A stretch of DNA of 64,000 nt. Source: Agelas oroides (Eukaryota; Porifera; Demospongiae; Agelasida; Agelasidae). The notes beneath the pieces were generated by a model that saw only the letters and a program-made list of their open reading frames with translations, made no database searches and was not told the DNA's origin. The translations under genes and the position numbers were made by a program. The DNA lies in assembly GCA_949130485.1 (NCBI GenBank), contig OX422199.1, positions 6,566,902 to 6,630,901 of the forward strand. The letters are read 5' to 3'. Shown in pieces: positions 7,048 to 51,697 of this stretch; position 1 is the first letter of the stretch; each line of letters starts with the position of its first letter.

Positions 7048-10000
7048 CTAATCGTATTCATCCAGTGAGTTCTCACTTCGTTTCTCGCCTAAAGGTGCAA
7101 ACTGTAACTCCTCAAATTCTTTCAATTTCTGCTCGAAAACATTAACTTCATTCTGCGCGAAACTTGCTATCGTATCATGTTGAGTTATCCCATACCCCAT
7201 GACGTTTGTTGGATCTGTGTCATGTCCATTCACTCTATCCTGCATGACGCTTGCTTGCATATCTCTATTCATCTCACCACCCATGACATCTGTTTCTATA
7301 TTTCCATTTATTTTTATATCCCCATTCACCTCACCCTGCAGGAGGTTTGCTTCATCTTCGTTAGCCATCATGACATTCCTTTCAATGTCTAATTGTGATT
7401 CCATGTCTATTTCTGATTCCATGCCAGTTCCAATTTCTTCCAGACCAAGTGTTTCAGGCAGTGAGCCTTTGATGTAAATTTTGCCCGAAGTTGCTTCTTG
7501 GTTTGGAATGATTGTGTCCATTTTAATCTCAGTCTTCTCTCGCAGCTGACTATTAAATTTCAACTCCTCTCTCTTGTTAAAATTACTTCCAGTCAACAGC
7601 TGCTCAGCAGTATATCTTGGATTATGATAAGTGAAGCCAGCTTTTTCTCGAAGATTGGATGTACCCGAGGTGGAGAACTTTTTGCTCTTCCTGCACAGGC
7701 TACTAGTAATCACATAGGTCCAAAACTCACGACCATCTTTGCCAATCAAACAGATAACAACAAAGAAAACAAATCCCTGGAATCCATTGAAGATGACAAA
7801 TAGGTATTGGAATACTGTTGAAGCTTCCCTCACAGTCAGTGCACCAAAAAGCCACGTCAGACCAAATGTTACCATGAGCCCCACAATGCTAATCATAGTC
7901 TTGATGGTGGATTTGACAGAAGTCTTCTTTTTCCTACTTTGGGTGACCAGCACTCGAACACCAAGAATGAAGATAACGAAATTAAATGCAAAAACTACAA
8001 ATATGGGACCAAATAGAGTTACAAAAAAAACTTTTGGATCACTGATGAAACAGCTGTGGAGGAAAATAATTTGAAAATTGCATCATCAACATGAGTTTTA
8101 GAGTCATCATAACATATGTACATATAATATATATATTGCATCTGACAAATGTTCTCCATGCCAAAAACTTAAACTCATTTCAGTTCCTGGTAGTAACTGT
8201 ACCAATCTGGCTTCTAACTTTCTAGCACAGAACTAGATGCATACAATATGCTGTTAGAGGTAATTACATGTACACCTGTTGATTTATGTTGTGGCAAGCC
8301 ACATGCATGCACACACCCAGTCTTATCTTCATTCTGTTATCATGGGATGTGGGTGCAGGTTGCAGCCAAAATTAATGGTGAAGCACTTTAGCTCCAAAAC
8401 CACTCTTTAGTCTCACATGTAACACACGTTCACAGCTACAAAACACTTACTGGAGCAAAATTTGAGTTTCAGAAATTTTCGCGGTTTTAATTTTCACAGT
8501 CGGTGAATCTGGGTTCTGCGCATTAGCTAGCTGTACAGCTAAAAGCTGAGCGAATGTCTAGAATTGTCTACAGAGAGAGATGGCAATCTCAGCTCTTTGT
8601 TCCAGTATGGTGAGAAACTGAATAGCCTCGTACCCAGGACATTCGTAGAAATGCCTGGATTGCTTCCACTCTTGGCCTTGCACCACTGTCCAGTTCGTGC
8701 ATCTGTGCTTTAGCACTTCAATTAACCAGATGGCTTGAGCGATAGCCGCTGAAGGCAAACTCGCTGACAGGAGTTAGGACGGCTAGATAGTTTGAGGTAG
8801 GCCGGATTGAAAAACAATTTGCTTGCTTTGCATGTGGACAACGAAAATTTCGTTGTTTTAATTTTCGCAAATGGCTGTTGACTCGTGAAAAACGCGAAAA
8901 TTATCAACCATACAGTAATCCCCTCTGTTCTGTATACATTGCAACTACATAATGCAAGGTGTAGTATCTGTTCACTGAGCTACAAATGGTGTGACTTACA
9001 CTTGTATTTCTCGCTCTCCTTCAACTGTTTCATTCACAAATATGAGCAAATTTTTTCCAGTTCCCAGGGTTGCAAGACCAGGCACTACAGCTAACAGTGG
9101 AGATACTGTGCAATAGAGTAAGTGATCAAGGCTCGGAACCATCATAGGGTAACGAATCACATGTTAGAAATTTTACAGAATGCACAGATAGGTATATGCA
9201 ATAGCAAATTGTAAGCATTTACGTAAGATTAGTAGCATCAGTAAATATCTTACACCAACAGATGAGGGAGACAATCACGAAATACTTCACAGTGATACTT
9301 CCAAACACTATGATGAGCTTCCGAAACATTAGCACAGCTTCTGCTCCCATCCAGAACACAGTAGCAAGTGTAAAGTAGTGGATTAGTACTGACATGGCAG
9401 TGCATACGATTTCATTTTCATTTCGTTCAATACCAACCATGAAGACCAACAGTAAACAGAACATCGCAATGGCAAACTGAAAGTGGATCTTGGTGATGTC
9501 ACGTTGTCGCATTTTCCTGTAGATGGAATAACACAGTTGTATAATTAAACTCAAAAATCAGATTTCACTAGCCTAATACCCCATAGCTGTAAAGCTCTCT
9601 GTATAAATGCTCCATTAAAAGTTTTTTGTAATTTCACACTTATTGAGAAATCTGATTGGTTTCTTTGATACAAATCTCATTGGCCAACATAACGTGCTGC
9701 CTATGAGGTTGCCACAGAAACATTGTACGGATGCGTTTTCAATTCAATTTTGGTCAGGGCAGAAGGCAGAGCTCACTTTTTTAACTAGAACATGAACAGC
9801 TAGCATCCTTTCCTATAGCTACCTGTGGCAGACCAGTAAAAAAAGTATCGAACAAAGGTGTTCCGTGTCCTCGAAAGTACAGGTGCTAGCTGTATGTTGT
9901 GAAAGCAGTCCCATCAGTGTGCCGAGGTCGTTCGAAATTATGGAAGCTTGGTGCATGCTTAGCAGTGTTGTGTTTTGCAATACCAACATTTGAGTTCTAC

Positions 10001-51697: not shown

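Follow-up and report, generated by a model that had tools for sequence, protein, structure and literature searches.

A predicted adhesion GPCR of the sponge Agelas oroides with a giant mosaic ectodomain and a duplicated HRM-GAIN-GPS unit

Introduction

The GAIN domain of adhesion GPCRs cuts at an H-x-S/T motif and holds a tethered agonist (PMC13062082, PMC11697300), and tethering to the ER membrane is reported to aid the self-cleavage (PMC12488864). The theory of these receptors assumes a single GAIN domain, adjacent to the membrane. SRCR repeats have been described on adhesion GPCRs of the sponge Amphimedon queenslandica (Aq712029 and Aq715659; PMC4302439) and SRCR-bearing adhesion GPCRs also occur in amphioxus (PMC2246102), while in a starfish 7tm_2 ranks among the top five partner domains of SRCR (PMC10855680). 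A Halichondria survey names NIDO, Sushi, SRCR, HormR, GAIN and 7TM in one figure legend in which NIDO is not tied to a protein (PMC8242945), and in two marine sponges an SRCR gene and an adhesion GPCR gene, which are separate genes, respond to microbial signals (PMC6208332). Passages of a choanoflagellate survey that deal with the HRM/GAIN/7TM module mention no doubled one (PMC12716839), and the first and larger part of a 2026 review of adhesion GPCRs contains no mention of SRCR, NIDO, two or multiple GAIN domains or a second GPS (PMC13197933).

Described here is a gene of the sponge Agelas oroides, termed gene B, analysed within a window of 64,000 nucleotides, the whole stretch of DNA examined. 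An initial annotation of this DNA knew of no described receptor with the full composition of the gene. That composition was indeed not found in the open-licence PMC literature, nor was a double GAIN or GPS in one receptor; however, SRCR-bearing adhesion GPCRs have already been described in sponge and amphioxus, and gene B is therefore no new kind of receptor. No published description was found of two HRM-GAIN-GPS copies flanking an Ig-like domain, of the SRCR triplet as a unit, or of a NIDO-CCP head in one adhesion GPCR.

Materials and Methods

A spliced dynamic programme that drew on codon usage and splice signals, and for which the window itself served as training material, yielded the exon chain of gene B; its codon model was seeded with ORFs chosen by eye. 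Start and stop were preset and a single chain was required, with the consequence that the programme cannot judge between one gene and two. The first result of 86 exons was curated using splice scores, the tandem paralogue (gene C) and a comparison of the two GAIN domains (GAIN1 and GAIN2). Eight ectodomain exons were corrected, two among them by splitting. The 3' part was built with a model trained on the 3' region and with conservation with gene C; the first GPS (GPS1) was located by reading the sequence and two exons of GAIN1 by homology to GAIN2. AG/GT borders, divisibility by 3 and an open frame are built into this method and are not evidence in themselves; the existence of such a chain with exact domains in gene B counts as evidence. 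The signal peptide of gene B was assessed by eye only. Genes B and C were compared through BLAST blocks.

Results

Gene B lies in a tandem array of paralogues with gene C upstream and gene A downstream (Table 1). The distance from the stop of one gene to the ATG of the next is 786 bp from gene B to gene A and 1,820 bp from gene C to gene B. The stretch with the NIDO first exon of gene A had no Pfam match on its own, no further exon was found in the remaining ~6 kb to the window end, and the two searched ORFs that fall wholly within positions 1-6000 had no Pfam match either. Gene A is either a broken copy or begins with a first intron of at least ~6 kb.

Table 1. Positions in the window of the features of genes A, B and C, with the evidence for each.
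Feature	Positions	Strand	Evidence or remark
Gene C, 3' part of tandem paralogue, end of GAIN1 to stop	53517..64000	-	cut by window end
Gene B, whole coding span	7048..51697	-	102 exons, 5,713 aa (model)
Exons 1-3, signal-peptide-like start and NIDO, residues 1-275	47127..51697	-	NIDO 172 bits, E 1.5e-50
Exons 4-11, eight CCP/Sushi domains, one exon each	44868..46760	-	8 Sushi stretches (Pfam)
Exons 12-77, 32 EGF alternating with six SRCR triplets (18 SRCR)	21905..44454	-	Cys counts, Pfam, triplet order
Exon 78, HRM1 (HRM-like), entering in phase 1 directly from SRCR18 in the model	21263..21486	-	sub-threshold HRM, 15.3 bits
Exons 79-83, GAIN1	17451..19955	-	GAIN2 homology; splice pairs; ADGRG2 chain E 3.4e-19
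Exons 84-85, GPS1, with [10 protein letters not shown]	16482..17266	-	PF01825 54.6 bits; motif in paralogue C
Exons 87-88, Ig-like domain between GPS1 and HRM2	14696..16013	-	Ig_3 25.2 bits, cut-off 30
Exons 89-91, linker	14122..14605	-	matched in paralogue C
Exon 92, HRM2 (HRM-like)	13621..13850	-	sub-threshold HRM 18.1 bits, E 0.0036
Exons 93-96, GAIN2	12144..13490	-	paralogue-based model; match to adhesion GPCR chains
Exons 97-98, GPS2, with [11 protein letters not shown]	11792..12029	-	PF01825 49.3 bits
Exons 99-102, seven-helix domain and cytoplasmic tail of ~210 residues	7048..11104	-	7tm_2 114.3 bits
Gene A, first exon: signal-peptide-like start and NIDO start	6053..6262	-	52% identity, E 1e-13; ATG 6262

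The comparison of genes B and C gave a dN/dS of 0.40 over 1,053 codons. The ratio was 0.28-0.33 in the 7TM (0.28 in TM5-7) and 0.56 in the cytoplasmic tail (7048-7680), which is the part changing fastest between the paralogues (dN 0.145, dS 0.259). No stop occurred in the 1,227 compared codons of gene C, and all 38 mapped splice sites were kept (38/38), an agreement that was partly rewarded while the 3' model was built and for that reason is not fully independent evidence.

The boundaries given for gene B by the initial annotation proved exact, as its chain runs on the minus strand from an ATG at 51697 to a stop codon ending at 7048. The length of about 5,700 residues was likewise borne out, whereas the exon count of 103 was replaced by 102 in the rebuilt model, one open chain of 17,142 nt encoding 5,713 residues; the summed exon length is divisible by 3 as had been claimed, though divisibility follows from the method. 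Within the model, uncertainty attaches to exons 82 and 96. Phase was free in the run, in which exons 4-76 all entered in phase 1 (73/73); in the final model, where two exons were split with the phase held at 1, the same applies to exons 4-78 (75/75). The rule begins at the NIDO-CCP junction, from which point the earlier claim of phase 1 at every ectodomain junction from NIDO to HRM1 stands, whereas the two junctions within NIDO are in phase 0. Counting Cys-rich open phase-1 stretches is a weak control that separates only modestly: the minus strand has 47 such loci and the plus strand 29, and in five random sequences of Markov order 1 the number was between 7 and 17. An antisense or low-complexity artefact was rejected on the exact cysteine counts in EGF and SRCR domains.

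A domain search of the conceptual protein, run on pieces that jointly spanned it, recovered one NIDO, eight Sushi (CCP) and 18 SRCR domains, two GPS and the class B 7TM, and the cysteine counts gave 32 EGF domains, so that the modules and numbers listed at the outset hold. The list had lacked the Ig-like domain between GPS1 and HRM2, and of its HRM domains the places were supported whereas the Pfam cut-off was not reached.

The CCP exons ride on a 243-bp tandem repeat of 7.7 copies (44855-46732, 90% matches). Exons of CCP units 5-7 are 97-99% identical and the introns 97%, near-identity that points to recent exchange. The repeat holds one exon per unit, and its copy number may differ among individuals.

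EGF runs of 2, 2, 15, 1, 8 and 4 domains, in that order, stand one ahead of each SRCR triplet. Exactly six cysteines were found in each of 30 EGF exons and 12 in one further exon, giving the 32 domains, and Pfam EGF_CA marks 30 stretches (2+16+12). The 18 SRCR domains are matched by 18 Pfam stretches (3+3+3+9) above the cut-off of PF00530; 17 of the 18 have eight cysteines, where 6-8 are expected in the SRCR superfamily, and one has nine. Two exons encode the domain in 17/18 cases. The SRCR domains form six ordered triplets, a-b-c, and the closest relative of every one (18/18) holds the same place in another triplet, with a mean identity of 0.56 between domains at the same place and 0.42 between those at different places. 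Among 10,000 permutations of the labels within triplets, three matched the observed difference in identity and three the 18 best hits, where arithmetic predicts that ~1.3 permutations will reproduce the same partition under other labels. Since relatives keep their place, the results indicate that the triplet is the unit of growth.

CA/GT microsatellites were seen, in ORF translations, next to the second exons of b-type SRCR domains: at ~32114-32180 just before exon 46, at ~41300-41430 just before exon 17, where the repeat extends into the acceptor, and at ~37780-37870 after exon 25.

The stalk between the SRCR array and the membrane contains two homologous HRM-GAIN-GPS units with matching exon structure in one gene, that is, HRM-GAIN-GPS was duplicated as a unit. 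HRM1-GAIN1-GPS1 and HRM2-GAIN2-GPS2 share 29% identity over 410 columns (E 2.8e-45). Exon phases agree in both units (HRM 1>0, first GAIN exon 0>0, then 77 bp 0>2 and 103 bp 2>0), as do the GPS halves (0>1 then 1>0). In GAIN1 the 77-bp and 103-bp exons are the best-scoring splice pairs at the places located by homology, and exon 82 (18881-18821) is the least certain; in GAIN2, exon 96 (12644-12144) may be two exons. HRM1 and HRM2 lie at the expected places and their Cys/Trp pattern fits by eye; their scores of 15.3 and 18.1 bits are below the curated PF02793 cut-off of 26.2, and in the piece searched for HRM1 a match to the unrelated DUF3517, at another location, had a lower E-value than HRM. 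Both are therefore named HRM-like.

Both GPS domains are above the PF01825 cut-off and have the motif CNHLT followed by NFGVL or NFAVL, and both motifs are kept in gene C. GPS2 lies within GAIN directly before TM1 and its motif has the H-x-S/T form. The best solved match of HRM1-GAIN1-GPS1 was ADGRG2 (E 3.4e-19), followed by ADGRG6 (E 4.4e-17) over nearly the full length, with ADGRG6 chain 6v55 aligning over query residues 15-349 from HRM1 to GPS1. GAIN2-GPS2 matched ADGRG6 and ADGRL3 chains, the alignments extending into the GAIN part. The linker of exons 89-91 gave no Pfam family above cut-off. A 7TM remnant after GPS1 was rejected, as the intron between GPS1 and exon 86 is only 314 bp.

Two kinds of repeat were observed in introns of gene B. 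The intron between exons 82 and 83 holds a mobile-element-like insert (17946-18602) with 72-bp inverted repeats that are 99% complementary, inside which lies a DEAD-box helicase fragment (18131-18487, minus strand), RecQ-like by eye; of the ten listed ORFs searched against Pfam one matched (1/10), as a DEAD helicase fragment. A dispersed repeat occurs in two introns (16217-16443 and 49841-50085, 77% over 248 columns).

The family B2 assignment of the seven-helix domain agrees with its PF00002 score of 114.3 bits against a cut-off of 20.6. A search of the PDB with GPS2 and 7TM matched 39 sequences, of which the best 27 are adhesion GPCR chains and the remaining 12 are secretin-type and further adhesion chains. 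The closest was ADGRG6 chain 21du (E 3.5e-43), which aligns along the length of the 7TM. No relative of the 7TM was found in viral contigs (10 pattern stretches) or in genome contigs (146 stretches).

The gap between SRCR18 and HRM1 (21904-21487) is 418 bp and joins phase 1 to phase 1. The HRM1 acceptor scored 3.3 against a model median of 2.9, and the SRCR18 donor 2.0, slightly under the median of 2.4. The open frame of HRM1 contains no ATG before exon 78. An independent start with a signal peptide upstream of HRM1, named by the initial annotation as one sign of two genes, was sought in the 1.5 kb before HRM1 (23012-21486): none of 24 start/donor pairs combined a hydrophobic core of nine residues with a donor score of at least 0, in a search that required at least 15 codons ahead of the donor and in which an untranslated first exon is not detectable. 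From an acceptor at 21602, whose score of 3.6 exceeds the median, 41 open codons lead to a stop overlapping the HRM1 acceptor. They include a weakly hydrophobic stretch (KD 1.55 over 19 residues), and a truncated or membrane-ended SRCR product formed by way of this acceptor is possible.

Discussion

Gene B is best read as one adhesion GPCR whose ectodomain is a giant mosaic, and that one gene extends from NIDO to the 7TM is highly probable. The large ectodomain of adhesion modules is on the same polypeptide as the 7TM in the gene model, the continuity from SRCR18 to HRM1 being model-based and argued for by phase, by spacing and by the absence of a credible start in the vicinity. The alternative of two neighbouring genes duplicated together as a pair, a NIDO-CCP-EGF-SRCR protein that is secreted or otherwise anchored and a separate HRM-GAIN-Ig-HRM-GAIN-7TM receptor, would place the receptor start in or before the 418-bp gap. 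The order of the array is compatible with a duplicated pair, 21602-21475 is a possible terminal exon, and the chain was made as one gene by design; however, the open frame of HRM1 lacks an ATG before it, 0/24 start/donor pairs passed both tests, the phases agree across the junction and the gap falls short of either distance between genes in the array (786 and 1,820 bp), which together make two genes improbable. A non-functional copy, or an assembly artefact of a collapsed repeat-rich array, is very improbable: near-identical tandem units such as CCP 5-7 (97-99% in exons) and an array of paralogues are hard to assemble, and one intron has a mobile-element-like insert, but the chain is intact with exact cysteine counts in 32/32 EGF and 17/18 SRCR domains, the dN/dS between genes B and C is purifying, and the splice sites are kept (if with agreement partly rewarded in modelling) with no stop in the compared codons.

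For the single gene, a likely function is that of a plasma-membrane receptor, one adhesion GPCR of the array, with self-cutting of GAIN2 and signalling by a tethered agonist. The product would expose an ectodomain of ~5,200 residues at the plasma membrane, in which a NIDO head and eight CCPs would be carried on six three-SRCR blocks spaced by runs of calcium-binding-type EGF domains, the whole leading into the duplicated HRM-GAIN-GPS, with the Ig-like domain between the copies, and then into the class B2 7TM. GAIN2, next to the membrane, would self-cleave in the ER at HL/T, with the ectodomain remaining non-covalently attached. When the array binds matrix, neighbouring cells or microbes and is pulled, the tethered agonist TNFAVLV... 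would be uncovered, and once exposed it would activate the 7TM and a G protein. Taken by itself, Stachel-type signalling from GPS2 is predicted by the sequence and quite likely. Multivalent ligand recognition by SRCR and CCP domains is suggested by the module types only, and recognition of self/non-self or of matrix by gene B would be in keeping with it.

It would be consistent with the extreme size of the ectodomain, and with two possible shedding sites, that gene B is as modelled and yet chiefly an adhesion or scavenger protein, or the source of a shed ectodomain, with the 7TM as an anchor and little G-protein signalling; a sponge aggregation receptor with SRCR and SCR domains has been described as a membrane protein (PMC4557014). 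This is nevertheless unlikely, as the 7TM is the most constrained part between genes B and C (0.28-0.33, the tail having 0.56) and can be aligned with ADGRG6 along its length, and a tethered-agonist-like sequence is present at GPS2.

In the preferred reading, a receptor signalling from GPS2, GAIN1 would be a second, membrane-distant site; if it were cut, the 4,500-residue array could be shed while GAIN2 kept the receptor latent. Cutting of GAIN1 is doubtful, since it lies ~650 residues from TM1 and ER tethering is reported to aid the cut (PMC12488864), though it keeps some chance, and the doubt makes gene B a useful natural experiment. With two HRM-GAIN-GPS units that look cleavable, and both GPS motifs preserved in at least two tandem paralogues, the gene offers a natural test of staged release and of the ability of a GAIN far from the membrane to cut. 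The furthest extension, to which we give little credence, is a two-stage receptor in which both GAIN domains cut, so that three pieces would be held together non-covalently, with two serial tethered agonists. The giant outer piece would then first be shed at GPS1 by force or a ligand acting on the SRCR/CCP array, and a higher threshold or a second ligand on Ig-HRM2 would take the middle piece off at GPS2 and switch the 7TM on. In such a receptor, gene copies and readily exchanged CCP exons would vary the recognising end between individuals, as self/non-self recognition needs.

Among solved structures, ADGRG6 (GPR126) is the closest relative of GPS2 and 7TM, and ADGRG2, then ADGRG6, of HRM1-GAIN1-GPS1; neither is known to have NIDO, CCP, an SRCR array or a second HRM-GAIN-GPS. 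The Amphimedon SRCR receptors resemble gene B in having multiple SRCR domains on a class B2 7TM, and HRM, Ig, EGF and GPS domains occur in the receptor set of that sponge as in gene B. Unlike gene B, as compared by text description, NIDO and sushi have no occurrences in the text of that report, and its passages on these receptors mention no second GAIN or GPS (PMC4302439). The SRCR- and CTLD-bearing adhesion GPCRs of amphioxus and placozoans share with gene B the use of scavenger or pattern-recognition modules, but have other module sets, and no double GAIN is mentioned in the passages describing them (PMC2246102, PMC6321704).

Sponge SRCR gene clusters are tandem arrays, like that of gene B. 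The described clusters, however, duplicate units of one or two SRCR domains, whereas the unit of gene B is three, and their SRCR domains mostly have three exons, whereas gene B has two in 17/18 and carries them in a gene with a 7TM (PMC10855680). The putative aggregation receptor of Geodia cydonium combines SRCR and CCP/SCR domains in a sponge membrane protein, as gene B does, whereas the passages describing it mention no 7TM, NIDO or EGF (PMC4557014). The ectodomain of gene B joins the modules of that putative receptor (SRCR and CCP) to a G-protein-signalling unit, and the gene is a concrete candidate for how recognition of cells or microbes could signal in an early animal.
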